64,000 bases of DNA, taken from the NCBI GenBank assembly GCA_030068145.1, contig JAPJBO010000481.1, positions 107,766-171,765 of the forward strand, written 5' to 3'. The notes below the pieces were generated by a model, which ran no database searches, was not told the origin of the DNA, and worked only from the letters and a program-made list of their open reading frames with translations. Made by a program: the position numbers and the translations under genes. Positions 23,773 through 58,200 of the stretch are shown here, one piece after another. This DNA is from Diplonema papillatum (Eukaryota > Euglenozoa > Diplonemea > Diplonemida > Diplonemidae). The stretch's first letter is position 1. The number at the start of each line of letters is the position of its first letter.

Positions 23773-23795
23773 GTTGGACCAAAATGTTGGACCAA
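23773..23795 (-). repeat. isolated 1.8-copy 13-bp satellite unit
   Basis: The 23 bases are an exact match to the inverted 13-bp satellite found in large arrays from 38.5 kb onward. The flanking sequence is unrelated. It could be a seed, a relic or chance. An exact 23-bp match by chance is unlikely. Confidence 0.7.
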
Positions 23796-36376: not shown

Positions 36377-36424
36377 GGGTGAAACCGGCCGATTGGCTAT
36401 GACGGCCGCAGGGACGAAGTCACG
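36377..36424 (-). repeat. B1-like end of the rearranged YR element, inverted to 38432-38491
   Basis: A 48-bp sequence running ggggtgaaaccggccgattg...gggacgaagtcac recurs in inverted orientation at 38432-38491, where it carries an 11-bp internal duplication. On the minus strand it follows the RNase H coding end exactly as the B1 repeat follows it in the intact elements (both begin gtgac[c/t]tc). Confidence 0.8.
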
Positions 36425-38457
36425 CCACCTGCCCCCCCGCGAGTGAAAAAGGCCCTCACCGCCAGTAGTAGTTGCCGCCTGTCCTCAGGAGAGGCATCGG
36501 CAGCAAGGGCCACCCGCGAAGGAACATCAGCCGGATTGTCCTTCGTGCTGATCCACATGATGGACCAGTCGCACTCTAGCTGCTGCAGTCGGGCAAGAGC
36601 GGCCACCACTGCGTCGTTTAATGCCTTGTTGGGCATGCAGCTCTTCTTACGTGCGACTCCGACAACCGTGGTGTTGTCGACATGGATGTCTACTGCGCCT
36701 CCCGACACCGAGGAGGGCAGGGACTCGACAGCCTTCCGAAGCGCACACGCTTCGAGGACATTGATGTGATCGCGAGCCTCGGACCCGGACCAGTTTCCCC
36801 CCAACACTCTAATCTCGGCTGTTTGTCTGTCAACAAGGACGGCTCCCCACCCCTGCAGCGACGCGTCGACGTATACGGCAAACGGGCGAACCCGGCTGGG
36901 GGGGGAAAACGTTCTCACACGATCGACGGCGTTGATCCATGCCTGAAGATCCGTACGGACCGAGGACGGGACCGGGACGACCTCAGACACTAAACGGGTG
37001 CCTTTGTTCAGGTTGTTCGTGATCCGCCGGACAAACTTCAGCGTAAACCAAAAAGACCCCGGAAACGTTCCTGAGATTGCACTCGCGTGCAACAAACGTC
37101 CGCAGAGCGACTCTAGGTCACCGGCTGTGGGGAAATTCAAACAAACGGCCCGAATCTTATCGATCAAGCGGGCCGTGGGCCTAACGGTTCTCTGTCCATG
37201 GTCGAACGTGACTCCAATGAAGTCATACACCGAGGCCGCGTCGTTGCTGTCTTCGGGTTTCCATGAAGCACAGACTCGCGCGGCCAGCCGATCCAGTTCA
37301 TCGGTCTGGCGCAGTACCGCATCACGCGGTCCGGAAAGGCGAATATTGTCGACCCAAGCGTGGACGACTATGTCCTTTGCTGCGAACTCCGGTGGTACGA
37401 AATCCGGGTGCCCCGCCAAGACGGCGGTCAGCGTGTGCATCAACTCTGGTGCACACGAGTGCCCCATGGGCAGCCTGTTCAGCACATAGGGATTCCCCTG
37501 GTCATCGAGGAACCCAAAATGTCGGCGGGCCGCTAGCGGAACCTCGACCTGGTAAAAACCACAGCGCAGATCGCGCGTGGTGGCACACTCGGAACTGGCG
37601 ACGTTAAGGTATTCAGAGACGTGGCCCAGCGGAACCTGAGCCACGTAGCCCTGACGGCTCAGCAAGTCGTTGGCCTCTTGTGTCCAAAGAATGAACCTCT
37701 GACGCAGATGGCCGGCCTTATCTTCTACCACCGTGAATGGCAGATTGCTGAAGTCGCCGGGCGTGTGGGAAGGTGACGCGATGCCTAGCCTCACCATTTC
37801 CTCAGCATGACTCTGCTGCAGGTGACTACGACGCTCCCCACAGGAACGGCTCGCTGGCCGATCACGCACAGGAAAAAACGTGGCCTTCCAGACCGAATCG
37901 AATCTGGCCCGCACGTCGGGCTTCATTCTCTCCAGAAGCGGTCCCGTGTCCATGACGGGCACTGCTGCCACATGGAGCGGAGCTTCTCTCTCGGTTAGAG
38001 ACACGGGAAGGCGGGTGCTGTGCGCGCGCCTGGTGATACTATGGCGTCCCCCCAGGTACGTGGGAGGTATGGCCTCCGGGGGAATCGATTGCTTGGTTGC
38101 TTGCGAAGTATTGGTAAAAGAAGCGCTCTGGTGACACGAGGGAGAATAAGGCTGTGACGCCACAAAACTTGATCCCCCAACAGGCTCCGCCGGAATTCCA
38201 TTTTCGGGCAGGCTGCAGGACTCGCCGGGGCCCGTGTTGCGGCAGGAAACCTTGTCAGGGTCTGCGCCTTGCCCTAGGAAGTCACCCCGGATGCTACAGG
38301 TAGGGCGTAGAGCTTGGTTCCTGAACAGCACGGCATTGTCTATTCTCCTGTGCCCATTGTGGGCGGTTCCGCGTCTCCTTTTCTTGTCAGGTAGGTTGCA
38401 TTGTTTTTCTTCTTCCCGCCCGCCTTCCCCCGGTGACTTCGTCCCTGCGGCCGTCAT
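36397..38457 (-). CDS. reverse transcriptase-RNase H of the divergent YR element
   Basis: A continuous 686-residue frame. From about residue 155 it aligns with the RT/RNase H part of the two intact elements. The order is PLHVAAVPVMDTGPL, then the RT core (TRDLRCGFYQVEVP, LPMGHSCAPELMH, HAWVDNIRLSG), then RNase H (FAVYVDASLQGWG, a glutamate in NVLEACALRKAV, HVDNTTVVG, NPADVPSR). The first 150 residues have no clear domain and overlap the inverted terminal sequence. Motif C is WVDN rather than YxDD. The stop lies in the B1-like repeat. The frame is intact, but Gag and recombinase are not present upstream on this strand. Confidence 0.85.
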   Translation of the reverse strand: MTAAGTKSPGEGGREEEKQCNLPDKKRRRGTAHNGHRRIDNAVLFRNQALRPTCSIRGDFLGQGADPDKVSCRNTGPGESCSLPENGIPAEPVGGSSFVASQPYSPSCHQSASFTNTSQATKQSIPPEAIPPTYLGGRHSITRRAHSTRLPVSLTEREAPLHVAAVPVMDTGPLLERMKPDVRARFDSVWKATFFPVRDRPASRSCGERRSHLQQSHAEEMVRLGIASPSHTPGDFSNLPFTVVEDKAGHLRQRFILWTQEANDLLSRQGYVAQVPLGHVSEYLNVASSECATTRDLRCGFYQVEVPLAARRHFGFLDDQGNPYVLNRLPMGHSCAPELMHTLTAVLAGHPDFVPPEFAAKDIVVHAWVDNIRLSGPRDAVLRQTDELDRLAARVCASWKPEDSNDAASVYDFIGVTFDHGQRTVRPTARLIDKIRAVCLNFPTAGDLESLCGRLLHASAISGTFPGSFWFTLKFVRRITNNLNKGTRLVSEVVPVPSSVRTDLQAWINAVDRVRTFSPPSRVRPFAVYVDASLQGWGAVLVDRQTAEIRVLGGNWSGSEARDHINVLEACALRKAVESLPSSVSGGAVDIHVDNTTVVGVARKKSCMPNKALNDAVVAALARLQQLECDWSIMWISTKDNPADVPSRVALAADASPEDRRQLLLAVRAFFTRGGAGGVTSSLRPS

Positions 38458-38498
38458 AGCGTCATGATAGCCAATCGGCCGGTTTCACCCCAATTTCC

Positions 38499-38771
38499 AA
38501 CATTTTGGTCCAACATTTTGGTCCAACATTTTGGTCCAACATTTTGGTCCAACATTTTGGTCCAACATTTTGGTCCAACATTTTGGTCCAACATTTTGGT
38601 CCAACATTTTGGTCCAACATTTTGGTCCAACATTTTGGTCCAACATTTTGGTCCAACATTTTGGTCCAACATTTTGGTCCAACATTTTGGTCCAACATTT
38701 TGGTCCAACATTTTGGTCCAACATTTTGGTCCAACATTTTGGTCCAACATTTTGGTCCAACATTTTGGTCC
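38499..38771 (+). repeat. 13-bp satellite, 21 units
   Basis: Exactly 21 copies of aacattttggtcc (273 bp) with no variants, filling the space between the end of the rearranged YR element and the B2 terminus of the next one. The same unit is at 44684-44826 and 49158-53567. Confidence 0.98.
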
Positions 38772-39281
38772 AGAATTCTCCGTCGTTCACGCACTCCTGA
38801 GACGCAAGCAATGAACGGAGAAAACACGAGAGGTCACATACGATGGGGTTACCCCCCGAGCTAGCCGCAGAAAGTGAGCGAACGGGCTAGCCCCGGAGGT
38901 CACGGGGGACGGAGGGTGGGAACCCATGCCCCACGGATCTCGCCGCCGAAGCAACGGAAGCTGGTATCCAGCAAGAAAGTGCACCCTCGCACGAGGGTAT
39001 CCATGGCCGCACGGCCGTCGAAGGCAGAAAATGATAAACAGAGTTGCAGGGAGGGCGGGTGGGAAAATTTTCCCCCGCGATCCAAGTGCGCACCGAGGTG
39101 TCCTAAGGGTCGTTTGTTTTACCTAGTAGAATTCCCCTGATAAATCAATAGAATTCTCCGTCGTTCACGCACTCCTGAGACGCAAGCAATGAACGGAGAA
39201 AACACGAGAGGTCACATACGATGGGGTTACCCCCCGAGCTAGCCGCAGAAAGTGAGCGAACGGGCTAGCCCCGGAGGTCAC
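38772..39281 (-). repeat. B1-A2-B2 terminal block, copy 1
   Basis: The 132-bp B sequence occurs twice in direct orientation (39150-39281 and 38772-38903) around a 246-bp A2 segment. B holds an imperfect inverted repeat (ttctccgt near 38776 and acggagaa near 38815). In PAT/Ngaro-type elements such split direct repeats allow a circular intermediate to be made and then integrated by the recombinase. The RT-RNase H stop codon (39278-39280) lies inside B1. Confidence 0.9.
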
Positions 39282-40870
39282 GCCACCAAACCCATCTCGC
39301 CAGTTAAAAAATCCCGGACCGCAAGTGAAATGTCCGCGATATTCTTATCGGTGAGAGACGTTACCGGGACCCGCGATGGCAGATCAGCAGGATTACCCGC
39401 GCTCTTCACCCAACGAACTGAAAATGCAATATTCAGTCGCTGCAAACACAACAATGCACGCACGACAGAGTCGTTGAGAACCTGCGAACGCAGGCATGAT
39501 CCTTTGCGGGCTACCCCCTGCACAGAAGTATTGTCCACCACAATGGACACCGAGGAGCCCGCGTGCGCTGGTGTGATGGCCGCTACGGACCTCTCCAAAG
39601 CCATGGCTTCCAACTCGTTGATGTGAAAACGCCTTTCGGCTCTCTTCCACCGCGCACCCACTACAACCATGTCGTTGGTGTCGACATCCACGAGTACACC
39701 GCCCCAACCATCCAGGCTGGCGTCAACAAAAACCGCCAACTCCGGCGTCTGCGCGGCAACAGGCACGGCACGTCGCCGCGCAACCCGTCGCAGCCATACG
39801 GGGAGCGACCGCCGTATGCCGTCGGAGAGGACGACCTTCTCATCTACGGCCTTCTCGCCCCGGTTCAACGCGTTCGTCACCCTGCGAAAGAACTTCAAGA
39901 CGAAGTAAAACTCGCCCACAAATACGCCGGTGATGGCCGAGGCGTGAAGGAGACGGCCAGCAAGGGACTCCACATCCGAGGCCGTCATTGAACCCCCTTC
40001 GATGGCGTCCTCTGCACGTTGCAACCGCGACCGCATTTTGCGCGATACGCCCACTGTTCCGTCGGCGTGATTCCACTCAACGCCGATGAACTCGTAGCTT
40101 TGCGCAGCCGTCTGCGTGTCGGCGGCCTTCCACGTCATGCCAGCTTCCGAAGCGAGCTCGTCCAACCGCGACGTCACCGCCAGCACCAGATCGTGCGGCC
40201 CTGCGTACCGGATGTTGTCCACCCACACGTGAACTACCACGTCCGAGGACACCGCGTACTGGCCGTCGACGTATTCCGGGTGCCCCGCCGCCGTCGACGC
40301 CACCGTGTGCATCAGCTCCGGCGCACAGGAATGTCCCATCGGCAGCCTCGTCAACTCCCACCACTCTCCTGCATCATCTTGGAATGCGAAGAGTCCGCGA
40401 GAGGCGATCGGAATCTCGATGCCGTAGAACCCACACCGGAAGTCTCGCGTCGAGCCACACTCCTCGCTGACCGCCTCGAGGTACTGAGAGACATGCTGAA
40501 GCGGGACATGTGCCTGGTAACCGTCCGTCTCGACCACAGCGTTGGCGTCGTACGTCCAGAGAATAAAGCGCTGACGAAGCGCCCCTTCTTTCTCCTCCAC
40601 AACGGTGAACGGGACATTGAGGAGGCCGTTAGGCCCACGACCGCGCTGAGCAATCCCGTGCGCCTGCAATTCCCTTGCATGTGCTGAAGCAAATCTAGAG
40701 GGACGTGGGGGAGAAGACTTCGTTCTGCCATGCGCATGAGGAAAAAACGTCCGCGACCAGGTTTCGTCAAATCGTTTCCGCGTTTGCGGGTTCATCCGCT
40801 TCCGCAGCACGTCGACATTGATCGGGGGCACCGAGTCGACATGCAATGGCGCCGACTTCTCCGCGTCATT
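39278..40870 (-). CDS. reverse transcriptase-RNase H, YR element copy 1
   Basis: The open frame runs from 42310 (1010 residues), but only the part below about 40870 (from residue ~480) has domain content. Landmarks counted from 42310: TRDFRCGFYGIEIP (~630), LPMGHSCAPELMH (~656), VWVDNIRYAG (~695), FVDASLDGWGG (~861), HINELEAMALE (~897), VDNTSVQGVA (~925) and NPADLPSR (~975). The RT motif C is WVDN instead of YxDD. The upstream half of the frame is Gly/Pro-rich and overlaps the recombinase frame, so it may be a shadow or an overlapping ORF2. Translation start is uncertain. Confidence 0.88.
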   Translation of the reverse strand, partial: NDAEKSAPLHVDSVPPINVDVLRKRMNPQTRKRFDETWSRTFFPHAHGRTKSSPPRPSRFASAHARELQAHGIAQRGRGPNGLLNVPFTVVEEKEGALRQRFILWTYDANAVVETDGYQAHVPLQHVSQYLEAVSEECGSTRDFRCGFYGIEIPIASRGLFAFQDDAGEWWELTRLPMGHSCAPELMHTVASTAAGHPEYVDGQYAVSSDVVVHVWVDNIRYAGPHDLVLAVTSRLDELASEAGMTWKAADTQTAAQSYEFIGVEWNHADGTVGVSRKMRSRLQRAEDAIEGGSMTASDVESLAGRLLHASAITGVFVGEFYFVLKFFRRVTNALNRGEKAVDEKVVLSDGIRRSLPVWLRRVARRRAVPVAAQTPELAVFVDASLDGWGGVLVDVDTNDMVVVGARWKRAERRFHINELEAMALERSVAAITPAHAGSSVSIVVDNTSVQGVARKGSCLRSQVLNDSVVRALLCLQRLNIAFSVRWVKSAGNPADLPSRVPVTSLTDKNIADISLAVRDFLTGEMGLVA

Positions 40871-40992
40871 CTTCGGCAACCGGGTCCTTTTCCCCCTCCG
40901 AAGTATCGAGTGCCGCTGGTGTTGCTGCACGAAGCGCTCAGGACTGGCTTGGTCGTCTGCGAGGCGAAGTCGCACCGCGCGAACCCCCTTCG

Positions 40993-42045
40993 TCAGAGGA
41001 ACATCGTCACCTCGCCGGTCTGCAGCACGCGCGCCAGAGCTACCGAATCCGTCGTGTACCGGATGGTCATGTCTGACACCGTCGGGTCCACTTCGTTGGC
41101 GTGCTTCGCCAGACGGGAGATCAAGTGCGCGGGGAACGGGGCCCCCCCGGCCTTTGCCGCCATCAGGTGGTCGACCGCGCCCCGCTTCACGCTGTGCGCC
41201 GAATACCGGCGCATCTTCTCGTCGGCTTTCAAAAGCTCGTCCAGCTGGTCCGTCGTCACCGTGCACAACTGGCGAAAATTGCCCATGCCCCGCAGCAAAA
41301 CCGAAATTTCCCGTGTCAATGGCCCCCGAATCTCTACCACCTTGCTCCGACAAAAGGGATTCCTTCGACGGCCCTTCGGCAGGGTATTCCAATCCACCAC
41401 TATGCCCGCGTCCGTCAACAGGGGAAACGACGCCCGGGACAGGGTATGGACCTCCCCCCATCGCGCCGCCGTTTTCCACGCAATCAATACAGCCGCACGC
41501 ACCCCTGGCGCCTGCCGGAACGCCCACTCCATCAGTACGTCCCTCGGGACCGGGATCGCCTGTTCCAACGGGATACTGCCCCCCGAACCCCGTAGAACCG
41601 TCATAAGCGAATGCAATGGGCGCGCATTCTCCCCAAAATGGCCGAAAACCGCCGACAAATTCCGGGCATACCCCAGCATACCCTGGGGCTCCACCTGCGT
41701 AGCCATAACAAAAAGCGTGGCTGTGTTCGGGTCCGTAGGCAGGCCATTGTCCGCCGCCCACCTGTGAAAGCGCCGCCACAAATTCTGGCGTTCCTGCAGA
41801 GTCGAATCCGCCCACGCCTTCACAACAAACTGGTGCAAGCGCTGGATTGCCTCTGTCGGTGTAACCACGCGCTCCCTGTGCCTCTTCCGTACACCGCGTG
41901 AGATCGGGGCCCCGGTCTTGCTCGCCACAACGGCGTAAATTTGCTGGCCGATCGTCGAAAGCGGGAATAGGGGTTGGATTCGGGGTGCTGGCTGCCCTGC
42001 GGCCGCGGGCGTGGATCCGTGACAGGGCGAAGAGCTGGCTTTCAT
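40993..42045 (-). CDS. tyrosine recombinase, YR element copy 1
   Basis: A 350-residue frame. N-terminal SAM-like helices (60-180) are followed by a catalytic domain with Arg195 in AARWGEV, Lys224 in LPKGRR, His284 in AHSVKRG, His315 in RLAKHAN and Tyr330 in MTIRYT. This is the R-K-H-H-Y set of phage-integrase-type recombinases. The usual HxxR has Lys at the third position with Arg one residue later. It would integrate the circular DNA intermediate by strand exchange, without a DDE integrase. The gene lies between Gag and RT and overlaps the 5' half of the long RT frame in another phase. Confidence 0.9.
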   Translation of the reverse strand: MKASSSPCHGSTPAAAGQPAPRIQPLFPLSTIGQQIYAVVASKTGAPISRGVRKRHRERVVTPTEAIQRLHQFVVKAWADSTLQERQNLWRRFHRWAADNGLPTDPNTATLFVMATQVEPQGMLGYARNLSAVFGHFGENARPLHSLMTVLRGSGGSIPLEQAIPVPRDVLMEWAFRQAPGVRAAVLIAWKTAARWGEVHTLSRASFPLLTDAGIVVDWNTLPKGRRRNPFCRSKVVEIRGPLTREISVLLRGMGNFRQLCTVTTDQLDELLKADEKMRRYSAHSVKRGAVDHLMAAKAGGAPFPAHLISRLAKHANEVDPTVSDMTIRYTTDSVALARVLQTGEVTMFL

Positions 42046-42234
42046 GTTTGCGGGTAAACTTGCCTGCGGAACGTCGCGAAGAGAATACGCGACCCGGGTC
42101 GGAGGAGGGATTCTTGGCCGAGACTCGGGTTCGCGCAGGGAATACGTTGCTCGGGTCGGAAGAGGGACCCTTGGTTGATGGTTGGATACTGGCAGAGGGT
42201 AGTCGGTCCCCCAGAGACCCCTGGGGAGGGCCAG

Positions 42235-42941
42235 TCACTTTCCCCAGGGTTTGGCGTTTCCCTGGCCCTTTTTTCCCCCTTTGCCTCCGCTGCGAGGACG
42301 GGCGTCCCACTTGCCCCTCTTTGCCATATCCCCCTCGACCTTGGCGACCGCCTTCTGCATCGGATTGTCCGATGTCATCGCCAACTCACGCATAAGCTGC
42401 GCCCGAGGAATATGCTTCACGTTCCAGTAGTACTGGAACTGTACTTCCTGGAACAAACTGTTCCCCAACCGGACGATCTCAGGGTTTTCCACCCAGCCCC
42501 CGCCTTGGGCCACTCCGTGCACCCAATCCCTCAAACGTTCGAATGCCCCCACGAGGGCTTCCGATTGCAAGCCTCCCATGTATTTGTGACGAAGGTCACT
42601 CACCAGCCTTGCGACGTCGCTCTCCATTGCCGCCTGCCACTCGCGAACGTCCGTCGCGTCTTCAGGGTATAGCGCCACCTTGGGGGACCTTGCGGGGACG
42701 TCCGCTGGCGGGAAGGGCAACGCATCACATGCCGCCGATGTCGCACCCGGCTGCGGTGTATAGGGCCGATCCTGCTTCCCCTCCAGGGCCTGCAGCTGTC
42801 GCTGCATCCGCATCAGCATGGCCATCATGTCGGCCTGCTGCTGCTGCTGCATTTGGATCTGATGCTGTTGCTGAAGGAGCAGCTGCTCGGTGGCGGTCGG
42901 TCGCTGCTGGTCGGAGGGCTGCAAGCACGGTGGGGGCAGTG
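42235..42941 (-). pseudogene. Gag-like protein, YR element copy 1, start lost
   Basis: Same sequence as the copy-2 Gag up to 42941, where the repeat array begins and the initiating region is replaced by acacaaaattac codons. It has a Gln/Met-rich helical stretch, a core of about 120 residues (DVREWQAAMESDVARLVSDL) and a basic Gly/Lys-rich C-terminus that overlaps the ORF2 start. Confidence 0.75.
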
Positions 42942-42944
42942 TGG

Positions 42945-43085
42945 CTTTTGTGTACACAAAATTACACATCGTGTACACAAAATTACACAAAGCATTACAC
43001 AAAGCATTACACAAAATTACACAAAATTACACAAAGCATTACACAAAATTACACAAGAATTACACAAGAATTACACAAAGGATTT
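42945..43085 (+). repeat. acacaaaattac minisatellite
   Basis: About ten irregular 12-14 bp units (attacacaaa with gc, aag or gaa fillers). It abuts the broken 5' end of YR element copy 1. Confidence 0.85.
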
Positions 43086-44683
43086 CACAGTGTATTTGGG
43101 CTCGAAATCGCTTTCGGAACCTTTTTCGCGACATTCCCGTCACATTTTGGCCTCAGCTTTGCCCCGTGAGTGAATTTGGATGTCTTTCGAGAAATTCACA
43201 GCTGGCAGACGAGTCTTCCCCACCACCACCACCACCACATCAGACTTTAGCCACCTCCTTGTCACGAACTTTCCTGCACGGTCAACCTTAATAAGGTCCT
43301 TATCGAGGCATCGTTTCAAGGAGAATGGCTTGCACTGAATTTGCCTCACTGGCCGCGCGGTAGCCTATGTGCGTACTGAGTAGGTTCGGGTGTCAAGAAG
43401 AGTGAGAGTGTGAATCGACATCAATGATGGACGACTCCAGCCTCAGGAGCCCAGGCCGCAGGCGAGACCCAACGTGACTTCGTTGTTATCTACAAGAACG
43501 AACACTTCCGTGTGACTCTGAGTCAGAAAGGGGCGCTGGAAAGATCTTGCGCAGAATTCTTCTACCCGGAACTTCTCTTTCCGAGCCTGTGGCGAAGGTC
43601 CTGCCACTACTGTAGTTACTGGAGAGGCGGGATCACGGCCGCTGAACACAAGGCCCCACGCACGAGAGCAGACAGCGAGGAAGGCCGGTGAAAAGGTGCG
43701 CGCCGTGCCGCAGGCGACTCCGCAAAGCTGCCACCTCGTACGGCAGGTTCCGCCCACAGGAACTACTCATCGGAATGGCAACGCAAGCAGGCCCGATGGA
43801 AACACGAAGTGAAGCGCGAGAGACGGACTACAGAGACGGGACGCGAGCCGTGCCAAGGGAAGACCGGGCGTTGGGAATCGTCAATGATCGTGCGAAACCG
43901 GAAGAAGTCAAAAACCGAAGCAACATCGACATGGAAGCACAGTCCAAGGACAGCCAAGCAGGCCTCCCAGGGCAGGGGAACCTACGGCGGTGATGTAGCG
44001 AAGCTCACTCGAGCTACCGATGAAGTCCCTTGTCAATACCAACGACGGTAACACGCATGCACAATGCCGGATGCTAGCTTCTGTCAAGAGCATGCGTGGC
44101 ACAGCCGTGTCTTAAAGGTGAGATGAGACACTCTGTCCAAGGACATACATACCACTACTGTATTTACTGGCTCACATGGTTGAAGGGAAACTCTTTTTGG
44201 TTCGACTCACGGTTCTGGGACCGTTGAGGTTGTTCATTGCGAAGGAATCCTGGGGGGACGTGGGCTCGGTCCGGGAGGGCAAGTTCTCAAGATCAGCCGC
44301 TGTTGTTGAAGATCCATTGACCGGGAAATCCTTCTTCAGAACCATGCGATTCAACTCGCGATACGTGATGCTCGTTCTCGGACCCGAGAACGAGCATCAC
44401 GTATCCAACACCCAGTTATGCTGAGACAGTGCGCGATGATCACTCGACCGATTCGGACACTTCAGTGTGAACACACAGCGCATCACTGCAAAAAGTTCGC
44501 TGCGTATACCAACCTACTCGGCTCTGCGCAGAGCACGAACATGAAGCCGCAGTGCCGCACGGAAACTGAGCACTGCCCCCCTTCGTCTTTTCGGATAGCG
44601 TGGCGAAAGCCGCAGTGCCACTCGAAGCTCGCAAGCAGCCGCCAGAACCTGAGCCCCGGCTGAAGGACACGGGCGAGCAACGG
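43086..44683. other. no gene recognised between the two YR elements
   Basis: Small frames only. 44080-44135 matches 6100-6150 inverted. A 22-bp perfect palindrome is at 44360-44405. Confidence 0.45.
44360..44405. repeat. 22-bp perfect inverted repeat with 2-bp spacer
   Basis: The arms gatacgtgatgctcgttctc-gg at 44360-44381 and the exact complement at 44384-44405 are separated by ac. No related sequence was seen elsewhere in the window. Confidence 0.95.
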
Positions 44684-44826
44684 AACATTTTGGTCCAACA
44701 TTTTGGTCCAACATTTTGGTCCAACATTTTGGTCCAACATTTTGGTCCAACATTTTGGTCCAACATTTTGGTCCAACATTTTGGTCCAACATTTTGGTCC
44801 AACATTTTGGTCCAACATTTTGGTCC
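44684..44826 (+). repeat. 13-bp satellite, 11 units
   Basis: Exactly 11 perfect aacattttggtcc units (143 bp) immediately before the B2 end of YR element copy 2, ending at the same phase as the array at 38771. Confidence 0.98.
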
Positions 44827-45332
44827 AGAATTCTCCGTCGTTCACGCACTCCTGAGACGCAAGCAATGAACGGAGAAAACACGAGAGGTCACATACGATG
44901 GGGTTACCCCCCGAGCTAGCCGCAGAAAGTGAGCGAACGGGCTAGCCCCGGAGGTCACGGGGGACGGAGGGTGGGAACCCATGCCCCACGGATCTCGCCG
45001 CCGAAGCAACGGAAGCTGGTATCCAGCAAGAAAGTGCACCCTCGCACGAGGGTATCCATGGCCGCACGGCCGTCGAAGGCAGAAAATGATAAACAGAGTT
45101 GCAGGGAGGGCGGGTGGGAAAATTTTCCCCCGCGATCCAAGTGCGCACCGAGGTGTCCTAAGGGTCGTTTGTTTTACCTAGTAGAATTCCCCTGATAAAT
45201 CAATAGAATTCTCCGTCGTTCACGCACTCCTGAGACGCAAGCAATGAACGGAGAAAACACGAGAGGTCACATACGATGGGGTTACCCCCCGAGCTAGCCG
45301 CAGAAAGTGAGCGAACGGGCTAGCCCCGGAGG

Positions 45333-46925
45333 TCACGCCACCAAACCCATCTCGCCAGTTAAAAAATCCCGGACCGCAAGTGAAATGTCCGCGATATTCT
45401 TATCGGTGAGAGACGTTACCGGGACCCGCGATGGCAGATCAGCAGGATTACCCGCGCTCTTCACCCAACGAACTGAAAATGCAATATTCAGTCGCTGCAA
45501 ACACAACAATGCACGCACGACAGAGTCGTTGAGAACCTGCGAACGCAGGCATGATCCTTTGCGGGCTACCCCCTGCACAGAAGTATTGTCCACAACAATG
45601 GACACCGTGGAGCCCGCGTGCGCTGGTGTGATGGCCGCTACGGACCTCTCCAAAGCCATGGCTTCCAACTCGTTGATGTGGAAACGCCTTTCGGCTCTCT
45701 TCCACCGCGCACCCACTACAACCATGTCGTTGGTGTCGACATCCACGAGTACACCGCCCCAACCATCCAGGCTGGCGTCAACAAAAACCGCCAACTCCGG
45801 CGTCTGCGCGGCAACAGGCACGGCACGTCGCCGCGCAACCCGTCGCAGCCATACGGGGAGCGACCGCCGTATGCCGTCGGAGAGGACGACCTTCTCATCT
45901 ACGGCCTTCTCGCCCCGGTTCAACGCGTTCGTCACCCTGCGAAAGAACTTCAAGACGAAGTAAAACTCGCCCACAAATACGCCGGTGATGGCCGAGGCGT
46001 GAAGGAGACGGCCAGCAAGGGACTCCACATCCGAGGCCGTCATTGAACCCCCTTCGATGGCGTCCTCTGCACGTTGCAACCGCGACCGCATTTTGCGCGA
46101 TACGCCCACTGTTCCGTCGGCGTGATTCCACTCAACGCCGATGAACTCGTAGCGTTGCGCAGCCGTCTGCGTGTCGGCGGCCTTCCACGTCATGCCAGCT
46201 TCCGAAGCGAGCTCGTCCAACCGCGACGTCACCGCCAGCACTAGATCGTGCGGCCCTGCGTACCGGATGTTGTCCACCCACACGTGAACTACCACGTCCG
46301 AGGACACCGCGTACTGGCCGTCGACGTATTCCGGGTGCCCCGCCGCCGTCGACGCCACCGTGTGCATCAGCTCCGGCGCACAGGAATGTCCCATCGGCAG
46401 CCTCGTCAACTCCCACCACTCTCCTGCATCATCTTGGAATGCGAAGAGTCCGCGAGAGGCGATCGGAATCTCGATGCCGTAGAACCCACACCGGAAGTCT
46501 CGCGTCGAGCCACACTCCTCGCTGACCGCCTCGAGGTACTGAGAGACATGCTGAAGCGGGACATGTGCCTGGTAACCGTCCGTCTCGACCACAGCGTTGG
46601 CGTCGTACGTCCAGAGAATAAAGCGCTGACGAAGCGCCCCTTCTTTCTCCTCCACAACGGTGAACGGGACATTGAGGAGGCCGTTAGGCCCACGACCGCG
46701 CTGAGCAATCCCGTGCGCCTGCAATTCCCTTGCATGTGCTGAAGCAAATCTAGAGGGACGTGGGGGAGAAGACTTCGTTCTGCCATGCGCATGAGGAAAA
46801 AACGTCCGCGACCAGGTTTCGTCAAATCGTTTCCGCGTTTGCGGGTTCATCCGCTTCCGCAGCACGTCGACATTGATCGGGGGCACCGAGTCGACATGCA
46901 ATGGCGCCGACTTCTCCGCGTCATT
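45333..46925 (-). CDS. reverse transcriptase-RNase H, YR element copy 2
   Basis: The full frame starts at 48365 (1010 residues) and differs from copy 1 at only a handful of residues. The domains and the WVDN motif are the same. Intact coding sequence, flanking structure and both termini make this the best candidate for an active element in the window. Confidence 0.88.
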   Translation of the reverse strand, partial: NDAEKSAPLHVDSVPPINVDVLRKRMNPQTRKRFDETWSRTFFPHAHGRTKSSPPRPSRFASAHARELQAHGIAQRGRGPNGLLNVPFTVVEEKEGALRQRFILWTYDANAVVETDGYQAHVPLQHVSQYLEAVSEECGSTRDFRCGFYGIEIPIASRGLFAFQDDAGEWWELTRLPMGHSCAPELMHTVASTAAGHPEYVDGQYAVSSDVVVHVWVDNIRYAGPHDLVLAVTSRLDELASEAGMTWKAADTQTAAQRYEFIGVEWNHADGTVGVSRKMRSRLQRAEDAIEGGSMTASDVESLAGRLLHASAITGVFVGEFYFVLKFFRRVTNALNRGEKAVDEKVVLSDGIRRSLPVWLRRVARRRAVPVAAQTPELAVFVDASLDGWGGVLVDVDTNDMVVVGARWKRAERRFHINELEAMALERSVAAITPAHAGSTVSIVVDNTSVQGVARKGSCLRSQVLNDSVVRALLCLQRLNIAFSVRWVKSAGNPADLPSRVPVTSLTDKNIADISLAVRDFLTGEMGLVA

Positions 46926-47047
46926 CTTCGGCAACCGGGTCCTTTTCCCCCTCCGAAGTATCGAGTACCGCTGGTGTTGCTGCACGAAGCGCTCAGGACT
47001 GGCTTGGTCGTCTGCGAGGCGAAGTCGCACCGCGCGAACCCCCTTCG

Positions 47048-48100
47048 TCAGAGGAACATCGTCACCTCGCCGGTCTGCAGCACGCGCGCCAGAGCTACCG
47101 AATCCGTCGTGTACCGGATGGTCATGTCTGACACCGTCGGGTCCACTTCGTTGGCGTGCTTCGCCAGACGGGAGATCAAGTGCGCGGGGAACGGGGCCCC
47201 CCCGGCCTTTGCCGCCATCAGGTGGTCGACCGCGCCCCGCTTCACGCTGTGCGCCGAATACCGGCGCATCTTCTCGTCGGCTTTCAAAAGCTCGTCCAGC
47301 TGGTCCGTCGTCACCGTGCACAACTGGCGAAAATTGCCCATGCCCCGCAGCAAAACCGAAATTTCCCGTGTCAATGGCCCCCGAATCTCTACCACCTTGC
47401 TCCGACAAAAGGGATTCCTTCGACGGCCCTTCGGCAGGGTATTCCAATCCACCACTATGCCCGCGTCCGTCAACAGGGGAAACGACGCCCGGGACAGGGT
47501 ATGGACCTCCCCCCATCGCGCCGCCGTTTTCCACGCAATCAATACAGCCGCACGCACCCCTGGCGCCTGCCGGAACGCCCACTCCATCAGTACGTCCCTC
47601 GGGACCGGGATCGCCTGTTCCAACGGGATACTGCCCCCCGAACCCCGTAGAACCGTCATAAGCGAATGCAATGGGCGCGCATTCTCCCCAAAATGGCCGA
47701 AAACCGCCGACAAATTCCGGGCATACCCCAGCATACCCTGGGGCTCCACCTGCGTAGCCATAACAAAAAGCGTGGCTGTGTTCGGGTCCGTAGGCAGGCC
47801 ATTGTCCGCCGCCCACCTGTGAAAGCGCCGCCACAAATTCTGACGTTCCTGCAGAGTCGAATCCGCCCACGCCTTCACAACAAACTGGTGCAAGCGCTGG
47901 ATTGCCTCTGTCGGTGTAACCACGCGCTCCCTGTGCCTCTTCCGTACACCGCGTGAGATCGGGGCCCCGGTCTTGCTCGCCACAACGGCGTAAATCTGCT
48001 GGCCGATCGTCGAAAGCGGGAATAGGGGTTGGATTCGGGGTGCTGGCTGCCCTGCGGCCGCGGGCGTGGATCCGTGACAGGGCGAAGAGCTGGCTTTCAT
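47048..48100 (-). CDS. tyrosine recombinase, YR element copy 2
   Basis: 350 residues, identical in translation to the copy-1 recombinase as far as can be seen, with the same Arg195, His284, His315 and Tyr330. Expected to act on the A/B termini and the target. Confidence 0.9.
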   Translation of the reverse strand: MKASSSPCHGSTPAAAGQPAPRIQPLFPLSTIGQQIYAVVASKTGAPISRGVRKRHRERVVTPTEAIQRLHQFVVKAWADSTLQERQNLWRRFHRWAADNGLPTDPNTATLFVMATQVEPQGMLGYARNLSAVFGHFGENARPLHSLMTVLRGSGGSIPLEQAIPVPRDVLMEWAFRQAPGVRAAVLIAWKTAARWGEVHTLSRASFPLLTDAGIVVDWNTLPKGRRRNPFCRSKVVEIRGPLTREISVLLRGMGNFRQLCTVTTDQLDELLKADEKMRRYSAHSVKRGAVDHLMAAKAGGAPFPAHLISRLAKHANEVDPTVSDMTIRYTTDSVALARVLQTGEVTMFL

Positions 48101-48289
48101 GTTTGCGGGTAAACTTGCCTGCGGATCGTCGCGAAGAGAATACGCGACCCGGGTCGGAGGAGGGATTCTTGGCCGAGACCCGGGTTCGCGTAGGGAATAC
48201 GTTGCTCGGGTCGGAAGAGGGACCCTTGGTTGATGGTTGGATACTGGCAGAGGGTAGTCGGTCCCCCAGAGACCCCTGGGGAGGGCCAG

Positions 48290-48997
48290 TCACTTTCCCC
48301 AGGGTTTGGCGTTTCCCTGGCCCTTTTTTCCCCCTTTGCCTCCGCTGCGAGGACGGGCGTCCCACTTGCCCCTCTTTGCCATATCCCCCTCGACCTTGGC
48401 GACCGCCTTCTGCATCGGATTGTCCGATGTCATCGCCAACTCACGCATAAGCTGCGCCCGAGGAATATGCTTCACGTTCCAGTAGTACTGGAACTGTACT
48501 TCCTGGAACAAACTGTTCCCCAACCGGACGATCTCAGGGTTCTCCACCCAGCCCCCGCCTTGGGCCACTCCGTGCACCCAATCCCTCAAACGTTCGAATG
48601 CCCCCACGAGGGCTTCCGATTGCAAGCCTCCCATGTATTTGTGACGAAGGTCACTCACCAGCCTTGCGACGTCGCTCTCCATTGCCGCCTGCCACTCGCG
48701 AACGTCCGTCGCGTCTTCAGGGTATAGCGCCACCTTGGGGGACCTTGCGGGGGGGTCCGCTGGCGGGAAGGGCAACGCATCACATGCCGCCGATGTCGCA
48801 CCCGGCTGCGGTGTATAGGGCCGATCCTGCTTCCCCTCCAGGGCCTGCAGCTGTCGCTGCATCCGCATCAGCATGGCCATCATGTCGGCCTGCTGCTGCT
48901 GCTGCATTTGGATCTGATGCTGTTGCTGAAGGAGCAGCTGCTCGGTGGCGGTCGGTCGCTGCTGGTCGGAGGGCTGCAAGCACGGTGGGGGCACCAT
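48290..48997 (-). CDS. Gag-like protein, YR element copy 2
   Basis: The first ATG is at 48997, giving 235 residues. The frame is open further upstream to A1 but without another ATG, and a stop lies just beyond. The N-terminal part is Gln/Met-rich and helical. The middle holds a helical domain (DATDVREWQAAMESDVARLV, later WVENPEIVRLGNSLFQEVQF). The C-terminus is Gly/Lys/Arg-rich (RSGGKGGKKGQGNAKPWGK) and could bind nucleic acid. It overlaps the start of the long RT frame by 76 bases. No zinc knuckle. Confidence 0.75.
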   Translation of the reverse strand: MVPPPCLQPSDQQRPTATEQLLLQQQHQIQMQQQQQADMMAMLMRMQRQLQALEGKQDRPYTPQPGATSAACDALPFPPADPPARSPKVALYPEDATDVREWQAAMESDVARLVSDLRHKYMGGLQSEALVGAFERLRDWVHGVAQGGGWVENPEIVRLGNSLFQEVQFQYYWNVKHIPRAQLMRELAMTSDNPMQKAVAKVEGDMAKRGKWDARPRSGGKGGKKGQGNAKPWGK

Positions 48998-49069
48998 CTC
49001 CCTCCATTTTCCCGTCGCCAAGATGTCGTCGAACTTTGCCCCGTCCAGGCCGTGAATCTCGACCAACGT

Positions 49070-49157
49070 GGAAAATTTTCCCCCGCGATCCAAGTGCGCA
49101 CCGAGGTGTCCTAAGGGTCGTTTGTTTTACCTAGTAGAATTCCCCTGATAAATCAAT
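49070..49157 (-). repeat. A1 split direct repeat, YR element copy 2
   Basis: 88 bp (ggaaaattttcccccgcgat ... gataaatcaat) identical to the distal part of A2 at about 45117-45204. It forms the 5' end of the element and joins the satellite as aatcaat|aacattttgg. Confidence 0.9.
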
Positions 49158-52100
49158 AACATTTTGGTCCAACATTTTGGTCCAACATTTTGGTTGGTCC
49201 AACATTTTGGTCCAACATTTTGGTCCAACATTTTGGTCCAACATTTTGGTCCAACATTTTGGTCCAACATTTTGGTCCAACATTTTGGTCCAACATTTTG
49301 GTCCAACATTTTGGTCCAACATTTTGGTCCAACATTTTGGTCCAACATTTTGGTCCAACATTTTGGTCCAACATTTTGGTCCAACATTTTGGTCCAACAT
49401 TTTGGTCCAACATTTTGGTCCAACATTTTGGTCCAACATTTTGGTCCAACATTTTGGTCCAACATTTTGGTCCAACATTTTGGTCCAACATTTTGGTCCA
49501 ACATTTTGGTCCAACATTTTGGTCCAACATTTTGGTCCAACATTTTGGTCCAACATTTTGGTCCAACATTTTGGTCCAACATTTTGGTCCAACATTTTGG
49601 TCCAACATTTTGGTCCAACATTTTGGTCCAACATTTTGGTCCAACATTTTGGTCCAACATTTTGGTCCAACATTTTGGTCCAACATTTTGGTCCAACATT
49701 TTGGTCCAACATTTTGGTCCAACATTTTGGTCCAACATTTTGGTCCAACATTTTGGTCCAACATTTTGGTCCAACATTTTGGTCCAACATTTTGGTCCAA
49801 CATTTTGGTCCAACATTTTGGTCCAACATTTTGGTCCAACATTTTGGTCCAACATTTTGGTCCAACATTTTGGTCCAACATTTTGGTCCAACATTTTGGT
49901 CCAACATTTTGGTCCAACATTTTGGTCCAACATTTTGGTCCAACATTTTGGTCCAACATTTTGGTCCAACATTTTGGTCCAACATTTTGGTCCAACATTT
50001 TGGTCCAACATTTTGGTCCAACATTTTGGTCCAACATTTTGGTCCAACATTTTGGTCCAACATTTTGGTCCAACATTTTGGTCCAACATTTTGGTCCAAC
50101 ATTTTGGTCCAACATTTTGGTCCAACATTTTGGTCCAACATTTTGGTCCAACATTTTGGTCCAACATTTTGGTCCAACATTTTGGTCCAACATTTTGGTC
50201 CAACATTTTGGTCCAACATTTTGGTCAACATTTTGGTCCAACATTTTGGTCCAACATTTTGGTCCAACATTTTGGTCCAACATTTTGGTCCAACATTTTG
50301 GTCCAACATTTTGGTCCAACATTTTGGTCCAACATTTTGGTCCAACATTTTGGTCCAACATTTTGGTCCAACATTTTGGTCCAACATTTTGGTCCAACAT
50401 TTTGGTCCAACATTTTGGTCCAACATTTTGGTCCAACATTTTGGTCCAACATTTTGGTCCAACATTTTGGTCCAACATTTTGGTCCAACATTTTGGTCCA
50501 ACATTTTGGTCCAACATTTTGGTCCAACATTTTGGTCCAACATTTTGGTCCAACATTTTGGTCCAACATTTTGGTCCAACATTTTGGTCCAACATTTTGG
50601 TCCAACATTTTGGTCCAACATTTTGGTCCAACATTTTGGTCCAACATTTTGGTCCAACATTTTGGTCCAACATTTTGGTCCAACATTTTGGTCCAACATT
50701 TTGGTCCAACATTTTGGTCCAACATTTTGGTCCAACATTTTGGTCCAACATTTTGGTCCAACATTTTGGTCCAACATTTTGGTCCAACATTTTGGTCCAA
50801 CATTTTGGTCCAACATTTTGGTCCAACATTTTGGTCCAACATTTTGGTCCAACATTTTGGTCCAACATTTTGGTCCAACATTTTGGTCCAACATTTTGGT
50901 CCAACATTTTGGTCCAACATTTTGGTCCAACATTTTGGTCCAACATTTTGGTCCAACATTTTGGTCCAACATTTTGGTCCAACATTTTGGTCCAACATTT
51001 TGGTCCAACATTTTGGTCCAACATTTTGGTCCAACATTTTGGTCCAACATTTTGGTCCAACATTTTGGTCCAACATTTTGGTCCAACATTTTGGTCCAAC
51101 ATTTTGGTCCAACATTTTGGTCCAACATTTTGGTCCAACATTTTGGTCCAACATTTTGGTCCAACATTTTGGTCCAACATTTTGGTCCAACATTTTGGTC
51201 CAACATTTTGGTCCAACATTTTGGTCCAACATTTTGGTCCAACATTTTGGTCCAACATTTTGGTCCAACATTTTGGTCCAACATTTTGGTCCAACATTTT
51301 GGTCCAACATTTTGGTCCAACATTTTGGTCCAACATTTTGGTCCAACATTTTGGTCCAACATTTTGGTCCAACATTTTGGTCCAACATTTTGGTCCAACA
51401 TTTTGGTCCAACATTTTGGTCCAACATTTTGGTCCAACATTTTGGTCCAACATTTTGGTCCAACATTTTGGTCCAACATTTTGGTCCAACATTTTGGTCC
51501 AACATTTTGGTCCAACATTTTGGTCCAACATTTTGGTCCAACATTTTGGTCCAACATTTTGGTCCAACATTTTGGTCCAACATTTTGGTCCAACATTTTG
51601 GTCCAACATTTTGGTCCAACATTTTGGTCCAACATTTTGGTCCAACATTTTGGTCCAACATTTTGGTCCAACATTTTGGTCCAACATTTTGGTCCAACAT
51701 TTTGGTCCAACATTTTGGTCCAACATTTTGGTCCAACATTTTGGTCCAACATTTTGGTCCAACATTTTGGTCCAACATTTTGGTCCAACATTTTGGTCCA
51801 ACATTTTGGTCCAACATTTTGGTCCAACATTTTGGTCCAACATTTTGGTCCAACATTTTGGTCCAACATTTTGGTCCAACATTTTGGTCCAACATTTTGG
51901 TCCAACATTTTGGTCCAACATTTTGGTCCAACATTTTGGTCCAACATTTTGGTCCAACATTTTGGTCCAACATTTTGGTCCAACATTTTGGTCCAACATT
52001 TTGGTCCAACATTTTGGTCCAACATTTTGGTCCAACATTTTGGTCCAACATTTTGGTCCAACATTTTGGTCCAACATTTTGGTCCAACATTTTGGTCCAA

Positions 52101-53567
52101 CATTTTGGTCCAACATTTTGGTCCAACATTTTGGTCCAACATTTTGGTCCAACATTTTGGTCCAACATTTTGGTCCAACATTTTGGTCCAACATTTTGGT
52201 CCAACATTTTGGTCCAACATTTTGGTCCAACATTTTGGTCCAACATTTTGGTCCAACATTTTGGTCCAACATTTTGGTCCAACATTTTGGTCCAACATTT
52301 TGGTCCAACATTTTGGTCCAACATTTTGGTCCAACATTTTGGTCCAACATTTTGGTCCAACATTTTGGTCCAACATTTTGGTCCAACATTTTGGTCCAAC
52401 ATTTTGGTCCAACATTTTGGTCCAACATTTTGGTCCAACATTTTGGTCCAACATTTTGGTCCAACATTTTGGTCCAACATTTTGGTCCAACATTTTGGTC
52501 CAACATTTTGGTCCAACATTTTGGTCCAACATTTTGGTCCAACATTTTGGTCCAACATTTTGGTCCAACATTTTGGTCCAACATTTTGGTCCAACATTTT
52601 GGTCCAACATTTTGGTCCAACATTTTGGTCCAACATTTTGGTCCAACATTTTGGTCCAACATTTTGGTCCAACATTTTGGTCCAACATTTTGGTCCAACA
52701 TTTTGGTCCAACATTTTGGTCCAACATTTTGGTCCAACATTTTGGTCCAACATTTTGGTCCAACATTTTGGTCCAACATTTTGGTCCAACATTTTGGTCC
52801 AACATTTTGGTCCAACATTTTGGTCCAACATTTTGGTCCAACATTTTGGTCCAACATTTTGGTCCAACATTTTGGTCCAACATTTTGGTCCAACATTTTG
52901 GTCCAACATTTTGGTCCAACATTTTGGTCCAACATTTTGGTCCAACATTTTGGTCCAACATTTTGGTCCAACATTTTGGTCCAACATTTTGGTCCAACAT
53001 TTTGGTCCAACATTTTGGTCCAACATTTTGGTCCAACATTTTGGTCCAACATTTTGGTCCAACATTTTGGTCCAACATTTTGGTCCAACATTTTGGTCCA
53101 ACATTTTGGTCCAACATTTTGGTCCAACATTTTGGTCCAACATTTTGGTCCAACATTTTGGTCCAACATTTTGGTCCAACATTTTGGTCCAACATTTTGG
53201 TCCAACATTTTGGTCCAACATTTTGGTCCAACATTTTGGTCCAACATTTTGGTCCAACATTTTGGTCCAACATTTTGGTCCAACATTTTGGTCCAACATT
53301 TTGGTCCAACATTTTGGTCCAACATTTTGGTCCAACATTTTGGTCCAACATTTTGGTCCAACATTTTGGTCCAACATTTTGGTCCAACATTTTGGTCCAA
53401 CATTTTGGTCCAACATTTTGGTCCAACATTTTGGTCCAACATTTTGGTCCAACATTTTGGTCCAACATTTTGGTCCAACATTTTGGTCCAACATTTTGGT
53501 CCAACATTTTGGTCCAACATTTTGGTCCAACATTTTGGTCCAACATTTTGGTCCAACATTTTGGTCC
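49158..53567 (+). repeat. 13-bp satellite, ~339 units (4.4 kb)
   Basis: 339 copies of aacattttggtcc, almost without variation. The only irregularities seen are a 4-bp insertion near 49191 and a 1-bp deletion near 50225. The unit contains the 9-bp palindrome ttggtccaa. Because 13 is not a multiple of three and no reading of the unit contains a stop, all six frames stay open for more than 1100 codons. These are not genes. Such homogeneity means recent expansion. The true length may differ from the assembly. Confidence 0.98.
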
Positions 53568-53585
53568 AACAAAACGTCGGAAAAC

Positions 53586-53657
53586 GGGCTCAGCAGGGAA
53601 TCGAACCCTGGACCTCTCGCACCCAAAGCGAGAATCATGCCACTAGACCACTAAGCC
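53586..53657 (-). tRNA. tRNA-Pro(UGG)
   Basis: 72 nt on the minus strand. The acceptor stem GGCTTAG/CTGAGCC pairs fully (one G-U) with discriminator C. The D arm contains TGGTCTAGTGG (box A). The anticodon stem CTCGC/GCGAG holds the loop TTTGGGT with anticodon TGG. The T arm has GGTTCGATTCC (box B). A TTTT run follows 2 bases after the 3' end. The gene has no intron and no encoded CCA. It lies between the 13-bp satellite (18 bases from its 3' end) and the A-tail of a LINE (15 bases from its 5' end). Confidence 0.95.
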
Positions 53658-55211: not shown

Positions 55212-58200
55212 ATGGCAAGCGCACAATGCTGCTGCATTAACTGCAAGACAAGAATGGAGATGCTGGATGTTAGCTACAAGAGGGCGGCGAAAGATGTCGG
55301 AGGCTTCGAATGCGACGTTTGTGGGTACAAAAACGGCACCCGCAATCGGCGCCAACGTATCGGATGCAAGGGGCCAAAACCCATTACAGTATGTTATCCA
55401 AACTTTGAACGAATTACAGTATGGTCCGAACTTTGAACCCATTACGGTATGTCAATCCAAACTTTGAACCCATTACGGTATGGATTTTCAAACTTTGAAC
55501 GAATTACGGTAGGTTCCAAACTTTGAAACCCATTACGGTATGGTCCCAAACTTTGAACCCATTACGGTATGGTTTTCAAACTTTGAACCCATTACGGTAT
55601 GGTTTTCAAACTTTGAACCCATTACGGTGAGGTTCCAAATTTGAACCAATTCCGGCATGATTTCTAAACTTTGACTCTCAAGTTTGAGCATTTCGGTGTC
55701 ACTGTCAGGTTATAAGCCCAACACCAACGAGATACGTAGAAGCGGACGTGGAGAGAGATCATAGATGTGAAGTTGGCGTCGATGGATCCAGTTTGTGTCT
55801 TTTGGCACATGCTCGAGGTTGGCTGCTTGCTTTGGACCTCTCGATTTCTGAAGGACCTCGCACAGATGCATCCCCAGGGGAAGTGCTCGGGTTTGAAGAA
55901 GAGTCGGTGCATGGCAACCACCATTGCGGCGCACTCGCCCCCGATCCGCCCACCCCGGGGTCCGGTCCAATGCCTTCCTTCCCTGTCCAGCAGGTCGGAC
56001 GGCGGTCCGGGCCCTCCGTCACTCGTCATCAGACTTCATGGGAGGAGGTCCCGACGAGTCCACTTCCGATTCGGCTTGTCCGATTCACGCTCGAGTCGAC
56101 CCTGTGGCTGAAACGCCGCTGCTACTTCCGGATCCAGTGACGGCCTGCCGCTCGCGGAGTCAGAGTCGCGGACTCAGACCGACTGCGAAGTATCAAATGC
56201 TGCTCGAAAACTGCTCCCTCTGTACGGGGGCAGAATCCCACGGTTGATTAGCATGGAAAAACAGTTGTGTTCGAAGACCACGTTCTGCCGCGAACCTGCA
56301 TTTTGAGCTTGACGCTTTGAATACAACGGGCGCTCGTTGTATTTAGCCCCCCCCCTGTAATGGGCCGTCGGTGGTTATTCCTCTCCTACGCTGTCGGTAG
56401 GGATCCTGCTTTCGCAACAGGGAGAAGAGTACTCCACTGAGCTTCCGAGGTCGCCGTACTACAGTAGGGGCAGTGCCTGCCAACTTTCACTGCTGATCAT
56501 GAAGTTTACCCTTCCTCCTCCTCATCTCTCTCTTTTTGCCTTCCTGTTGACGCAAGTGATGGACAGAATCATCTGCGAATGGCGCGAACGTTCCAAAGCT
56601 TCCCAAAATGCGTCCACAATGATCAGGTTTACCTTTCGTTTCTGATTGTGAACTTTGTTCTTAAATTTGTCGCAACGGTGCGGCTAAGTGGCAAGCAGCT
56701 CGATGAGCATGACTCTTCTTCCGGTCCAATCACAATCCGGACGTGGCCGTAGGTTTCAGTGCCTGCTGATCACGAGGTTTACTACAGCTGTAGCAACAGC
56801 ACACAGCCGCTCGGCCAGCATGAGCCGTAGTGACGGTAGTCTAACGCCGCATCTTTGCGTTGAACGTGGATTTCGGAGGTCGCCGAATTGGAGATGAAAG
56901 TGAATCTGTTGCTACTGCGGTGCAGAAGGATGATGACTTAGGATCGGCCTACTGAAGACATGGTAGCTGCAACCATCACCCGTCCGCCTTAGAGTCTGAC
57001 TGATCGACCACTGACGTGGCACTGTAGAGTCACCACAGAAGATGAATTTGTCGCCCAATTACACTGCGTTGTTAACAACTTGCAGACCTCGACTGACAAC
57101 GGTACCGAAATTGGGCTCAAATTTTACACTTACCGGAATTCGTTCAAAGTTTGAAAACCATACCGTAATGGGTTCAAAGTTTGAAAACCATACCGTAATG
57201 GGTTTCAAAGTTTGGAACCTACCGTAATTCGTTCAAAGTTTGGAAAACCATACCGTAATGGGTTCAAAGTTTGGCACCATACCGTAATGGGTTCAAAGTT
57301 TGGATCATGTACCGTAATGGGTTCAAAGTTTGGATAACATACTGTAATGGGTTTTGGCCCCGGATGCAAGGCCTGTGACTTCGACCTGTGCTCGAAGTGT
57401 GGCAACAGCTGGGTGTTGAAGAAGCTCCTTCAGCCCTCGAGCAGTGGTGCACAGCAGGCTGATGCGCCCCAGGCCACAAACAGCGGCACAACACAGGCCA
57501 GCGGTGGTGCAACTTCAGAACCTTTGGCACAGCAAGTTGCTGAGCAACCCATCACTGCTGAAAACATCCCTGCCGACCAGCCTTCACCTGCCGCAGATCC
57601 AGCACCAAACTTTGGTCCAAAGGGGTTTCCTGCAGGCACAGTGCTCGGGAACCTCACACAAGACGGACTTGCACGACCAGACGATCCGCGTTACACTAGT
57701 GCATCAAGCAAGACATGGGACTTCCATGTCTACTTTCAGGTTCTCGAAGACGGGCTAGCCATGTGTCGTTTGGAAGGGTGCACACACATGCCAAAGATGC
57801 GCAACGAGAAGGGAACACCAAAACGCCACTACGATACGTACCACAACCACGAGGCGATTGAGGCAGCAAAGCGAGGCATCCGGGAGAGGGCTGAAGAGAG
57901 AAAGAGAAAAGCGGAAGCAGCAGCAAACGAGAAGGCGAGCACCGCGAAGCAGCGTCGCATTGCTGTTTCGCCAACAGTGCGGGGGTTGCCACTGGATGAG
58001 CATGTTGTCTTCACGTTTGCCAAGCACCACCTCCCGTTCCACATCATTGAGTCGCCGGACTTTCGTTCTCTGCTCAAGGCAGATGTCATCATGACGAGAC
58101 GCGAACTCAGCCAGAAGACAGCGCTGCTTGCAGAGAAGCTCATGACAGAGCTCTTCGCCTCACTTGCCGGGGAAGATGTCTGCCTCCTCGTGGATGCGGC

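Follow-up and report, generated by a model that had tools for sequence, protein, structure and literature searches.

Long copies of a probable Ngaro/VIPER-type retrotransposon of Diplonema papillatum lie mostly in tandem repeats of unrelated sequence

What decides where a retrotransposon equipped with a tyrosine recombinase (YR) settles in the genome of its host? The question is raised by a stretch of 64,000 nucleotides from Diplonema papillatum (assembly GCA_030068145.1, contig JAPJBO010000481.1, positions 107,766 to 171,765 of the forward strand; hereafter the window), in which two copies of what is probably such an element abut arrays of a 13-bp satellite. A preliminary description, made from the letters alone, had proposed this satellite as the integration site of the element and the palindrome TTGGTCCAA within its unit as a plausible recombinase site. 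The association that emerges from the whole genome is with tandem repeats as a class, not with one satellite. We consider it probable that the element is a YR retrotransposon of the Ngaro/VIPER type that inserts precisely and with little regard to sequence, its long copies going preferentially into tandem-repeat arrays.

The two copies do join the satellite at the same phase: the B2 ends of both read ggtcca^gaattc and the A1 end of copy 2 reads aatcaata^acatt, the caret marking the junction. Only the exact cut point has to be shifted. At every one of the 73 external A ends that have at least 20 bp of flank, the next base is an A, and the base before the B end is variable. Because this terminal A is invariant, and because the phase test given below performs best if it is not counted as target, the element extends from GAATTC to CAATA and, in the satellite, occupies the site GGTCCA^ACATT, which lies one base further right than previously placed. 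The base preceding copy 2 is also an A, so that this site taken by itself would also allow a 1-bp duplication of A, an interpretation excluded by the sites elsewhere that are preceded by G.

A search of the genome (271 Mb, 2910 contigs) found 364 exact dimers of the 13-bp unit, all of them inside the window (20, 10 and 334 in arrays 1, 2 and 3), and ends of the element at more than 100 places, the B-end pattern occurring at 115 and the A-end pattern, which also catches A2, at 123. The satellite can thus not be the integration site of the family, nor its special partner: satellite-specific integration was rejected since flanks across the genome lie in other sequences, and the 13-bp repeat is one landing place among many unrelated repeats. 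Of single 13-bp sites, one without insertion was found, comprising about 1.5 units within the window, and the sites of the other copies are other sequences. Tabulating the flanks of genomic copies, which the preliminary description had itself named as a check, places the other copies in other sequence, but the long ones mostly in tandem repeats.

Flanks were taken from most of the places listed, which numbered 100 of the 115 for the B end and 100 of the 123 for the A end (contigs are designated C plus a number; C2364 and two places on C1802 were left out). This gave 178 tabulated ends, 144 of them external. A copy was counted as long if it retains the A2-B1 joint or is longer than 1 kb. The 27 long copies comprise 21 from the flank table and those on C623, C670, C991, C1278, C1865 and C2516, which were classed by the spacing of their listed ends and not from sequence; likewise, the copies on C721, C835, C1216 and C1290 were classed from their ends and not from their interiors. 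The B flank on C436 has only 2 bases, C278 carries two copies within a tandem duplication, and C316 and C2516 look like a single locus. Several ends stand close together on C670 (39532-40305) and C753 (9938-10345), A and B adjoining, as if copies were nested in joints.

Long copies are strongly concentrated in tandem repeats. Counting any repeat within 15 bp of an end that reached a Tandem Repeats Finder (TRF) score of at least 30, we found 24 of the 27 long copies in repeats, the two of the window included (22 of 25 without them), against 7 of 32 short two-ended copies (Fisher p=2.5e-7) and 10 of 38 one-ended fragments, the latter still including three copies (C153 and two on C223) later classed as long. 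Merging C316 and C2516 gives 23 of 26, and adding those three copies 26 of 29. The controls yielded 277 of 3000 random window positions and 129 of 1347 positions lying over 700 bp away from the nearest element end. At the stricter score of at least 100, the figures are 22 of 27 for long copies, 6 of 32 for short and 7 of 38 for one-ended ones, with 139 of 3000 and 68 of 1347 for the two controls. Both flanks are readable in 14 long copies, 12 of which have repeats on both sides.

The repeats concerned have little in common. Long copies lie in (GT)n, in (CA)n, in a 3-bp unit and in units of 10, 13, 14, 15, 31 and 41 bp, and short copies additionally in units of 34 and 39 bp. A generally repeat-rich neighbourhood is ruled out as the explanation by the fall of repeat content with distance: in 19 flanks of long copies that reach 1 kb or more, 83% of the 20 bp nearest the element is repeat-masked, but 24% of the sequence 700-1000 bp away, the corresponding values for short copies being 7% and 15% (35 flanks). 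Among flanks with unmasked sequence, many others being wholly masked, similarity between contigs beyond the repeats was limited to matches of about 50 bp at most.

Insertion into these repeats is clean. Once the terminal A is assigned to the element, the joined flanks carry the repeat on with no base gained or lost. This phase test is decisive in long units, most clearly in the 34- and 41-bp arrays, and is best at zero on C721 (0.97, next 0.42), C1216 (0.93, next 0.37), C376 (0.93, next 0.40) and C1034 (1.00, next 0.35). Copy 2 scores 0.65 (next 0.50), reduced because of an irregular unit after 49171, and seven copies in (GT)n or (CA)n fit zero gain or loss as far as parity, which alone is testable there, can tell. 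An independent case is provided by C23 (C23:31280-32300), where a 366-bp derivative splits an EF-hand frame exactly; with the derivative removed, the flanks give a match to EF-hand_6 that spans the joint (E=2.4e-6). The length of this derivative is a multiple of three, and each of its three frames contains stops. The phase test together with the EF-hand site shows insertion without target-site duplication, as the preliminary description had deduced from copy 2 and as recombinase-mediated integration of a circle predicts.

No target motif accounting for the repeat bias was found at the tabulated ends beyond a minimal purine^non-C rule. At ends in unique DNA the base at -1 is a purine in 35 of 36 cases and the base at +1 is not C in 45 of 46. 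For (GT)n, this rule predicts TG^TG, which is what all 14 of 14 GT-oriented copies obey, once five of the 19 copies labelled GT (C11, C260 and three of C320) had been dropped as not being dinucleotide arrays.

The organization of the element resembles that of Ngaro, PAT and VIPER (coordinates in Table 1). Self-comparison revealed split direct repeats in the order A1 ... B1-A2-B2, and the A2^B1 joint reads CAATA^GAATTC in the copies retaining it, the joint expected of a circularised element. On the minus strand of copy 2 follow a gag-like frame, a probable YR frame and RT/RNase H (reverse transcriptase/ribonuclease H). The RNase H assignment relies on a Pfam match above the family cut-off (PF17917, E=9.9e-7); the reverse transcriptase is presumed from its motifs. 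We assume the preceding frame to be a tyrosine recombinase from its boxes RWGE, HSVKRG and RYTT and from its position; its hit to a PHROG integrase stays below significance (E=0.21). A Pfam scan of the gag-like frame gave no significant match. Copy 2 is about 285 bp shorter beside A1 than the 4616-bp copies, and it is 99.7% identical to copy 1 across 4310 bp, a stretch that includes some of the array.

These observations would be explained if a circular cDNA of the element were inserted precisely by its own recombinase, neither adding nor removing a base and needing little at the crossover, a purine at -1 and any base but C at +1. Tandem-repeat arrays, whatever their sequence, would be the preferred destination of long copies, the bias acting at integration through array structure or chromatin, or because a protein of the element, for instance Gag, tethers it there, and the 13-bp satellite would be one such array that received two insertions. 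Going further, the element may recognise repetition itself, as array structure or chromatin, under a rule of one base per side, the determinant being confined to the long element, given that short derivatives land elsewhere; this extension we advance tentatively, as somewhat less likely to be right than wrong.

Several points weigh against this interpretation. Three long copies, on C37, C453 and C1865, lie outside repeats. Phases are weak or ambiguous for the copies on C11, C260, C290 and C320, the copy on C758 shows no fit in the phase test, and the insertions on C721 and C1216, which share repeat, phase and fully masked flanks, may have arisen by duplication of a single one. Three copies in (GT)n stand in CA orientation, where both halves of the one-base rule cannot be satisfied, and one half is broken. 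The dimer of the window's 13-bp unit occurs only beside the element, and the dimer of a second 13-bp satellite, AAAGTTGGTCCAA, is confined to C316 and C2516, again beside the element. The putative YR frame has no Pfam or NCBIfam match and no meaningful match in the PDB. Finally, the bias fails for a class of short copies, of 377 bp, most of which lie in unique DNA.

The last point leads to the strongest rival explanation, which we regard as unlikely but serious: insertion could be widespread, full copies in unique DNA being soon cut down or selected out and those in arrays persisting. In ten copies the end positions lie 377 bp apart, which is the length from B2 through A2 and hence the remnant expected from recombination between A1 and A2 or from excision by the recombinase; only 3 of the 10 lie in repeats and 7 of 10 in unique DNA (versus long copies, Fisher p=0.001). 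Six of the ten were aligned and share 98.9-100% identity with copy 2. Either such copies insert alone and without bias, or a full copy that lands in unique DNA is quickly reduced to one of them. However, even if all ten are counted as former full copies, 27 of 37 would still lie in repeats, against 9.6% of control positions, and there has been little time for sorting, since in the coding part most of the long copies that were sequenced match copy 2 at 98-100% identity; the less similar ones are on C360 (95.8-98.8%) and the A1 end on C11 (93%). Copies on C153, C436 and C37 start at B1, without B2-A2, and are thus the complement of the 377-bp remnants.

Far less probable is that the arrays are products, an insertion having seeded the growth of its flanking sequence into a satellite. 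The confinement of the two 13-bp dimers, one to the window and AAAGTTGGTCCAA to C316/C2516 next to the element, speaks for it. Arrays of other repeats, however, occur where no element copy is listed, and are therefore probably targets: of the 41-mer's 7058 exact places, 100 are listed, all on C1 or C18, and neither contig has a listed element end; C720 holds a long TTGGTCCAAATTC array with no listed element end; and the 13-bp type TTGGNCCAA forms short runs on many contigs, again including places where no element end is listed. Repeats also stay in phase across both sides of an insertion, and dinucleotide arrays arise without any element. Insertion into an existing array, which the preliminary description had weighed against growth from the element, is thereby favoured.

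Copies 1 and 2 themselves look like separate insertions at one phase. They differ at 14 of 3632 sites, copy 2 and the copy on C42 at 4 of 3632, and copy 1 and that on C401 at 1 of 1361; as the two diverge more from each other than from C401 and C42, a local duplication is unlikely, barring gene conversion. These two insertions at one phase and orientation, and a second satellite that shares the TTGGTCCAA core and also carries the element, are what could be said for the 13-bp satellite or its palindrome as a specific recombinase site, an idea we find barely tenable because TTGGTCCAA is missing from most tabulated sites, the second satellite was entered two bases off the first phase, and TTGGNCCAA arrays exist without a listed element end. 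Short runs of TTGGTCCAA-type 13-bp units are dispersed over many contigs, e.g. at C1:590703, and are perhaps part of another repeat family.

With Ngaro and PAT-like elements, the element shares its A1-[ORFs]-B1-A2-B2 split direct repeats and its gag-like, RT/RNase H and (here probable) YR open reading frames (ORFs). The YR frame of Ngaro follows RT/RNase H; here the probable YR frame comes before it, and the targets are tandem arrays rather than virophage DNA. A YR upstream of RT/RNase H marks VIPER, and the putative YR frame, given its assignment, is so placed. VIPER of kinetoplastids has the same split direct repeats (PMC6681497), and Cafeteria Ngaro copies without ORF1 sit in other targets than full copies (PMC8547959), a parallel to the split between short and long copies described here. 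TATE is reported to use one position within telomeric hexamer repeats (PMC6681497), whereas our element enters many unrelated repeats; no such fixed telomeric site was encountered at the tabulated sites, whose repeats are various. For DIRS1-like elements, the published model is integration of a circle without target duplication (PMC3266345), but their terminal repeats are inverted and their junctions share a 3-bp sequence, in contrast to direct split repeats and a mere purine^non-C preference. Self-comparison of the element found its repeats to be direct, with no DIRS1-type inverted terminal repeats and internal complementary regions. The integration chemistry of LINEs is unrelated to that of YR elements. 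Among LINEs, the Togen families are (TG)n-specific and insert in microsatellites, reportedly of this single motif (PMC4640811), unlike the many repeats used here. The repeat-targeting retroelements in the literature consulted use one motif each, and in the literature searched, which covered few subscription papers, we found no YR family entering tandem repeats whatever their sequence.

If the proposed preference is real, entry into (GT)n as well as into 13-mers and 41-mers would suggest that DNA structure or chromatin governs the choice of target, and tandem arrays would offer a low-harm niche to a YR element. An insertion in an array of long units reveals the exact crossover, which makes such targeting testable. 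The case is also a warning that repeats flanking such elements may be unrelated to them.

Table 1. Positions of the satellite arrays and of the retrotransposon copies and their parts in the window
Feature	Position	Strand	Remarks
13-bp satellite array 1	38499..38772	+	21 units + 1 base; left flank of copy 1
13-bp satellite array 2	44684..44827	+	11 units + 1 base; left flank of copy 2
13-bp satellite array 3	49159..53571	+	right flank of copy 2
Lone satellite unit (~1.5 units)	23776..23788	-	without insertion
YR retrotransposon copy 1	38773..42938	-	coding on minus strand; cut off at gag/A1 side
YR retrotransposon copy 2, 4331 bp	44828..49158	-	GAATTC...CAATA, inserted at GGTCCA^ACATT
B2 repeat of copy 2, 132 bp	44828..44959	-	
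A2 repeat of copy 2, 89 bp	45117..45205	-	
B1 repeat of copy 2, 132 bp	45206..45337	-	
A1 repeat of copy 2, 89 bp	49070..49158	-	
RT (presumed)/RNase H part of open frame 45333-48440	45333..46907	-	Pfam RT_RNaseH PF17917
Probable tyrosine recombinase frame	47048..48289	-	open frame
Gag-like frame	48290..49126	-	named by position only; open frame

Within the window, the 13-bp unit has 374 matches at up to 2 mismatches, against 2.5 expected from shuffles. Array 3 amounts to about 339 units (TRF, 49158-53571), of which 337 are perfect and exactly two irregular, after 49171 and after 50202. The unit counts given earlier for arrays 1 and 2 hold, but these arrays do not lie between two copies of the element: array 1 is bordered by copy 1 and, on its other side, by a fragment of a different RT/RNase H element (ORF 36397-38484), and array 2 by copy 2 and about 1.75 kb of other sequence. 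The fragment at 36397-38484 has inverted copies of a sequence ending in GGTTTCACCCC on both sides; in the 8 stretches examined elsewhere this sequence is internal. To the right of array 3, a tRNA-Pro (TGG) gene occupies 53586-53657 on the minus strand, its 3' end 14 bp from the array. Further on, a foldback-like insertion at 55371-57360, inside a duplicated stretch, has inverted arms made of 30-bp minisatellites (55378-55674 and 57103-57353) and has on either side, as judged by eye, a direct repeat, CGGATGCAAG, of about 9-10 bp.

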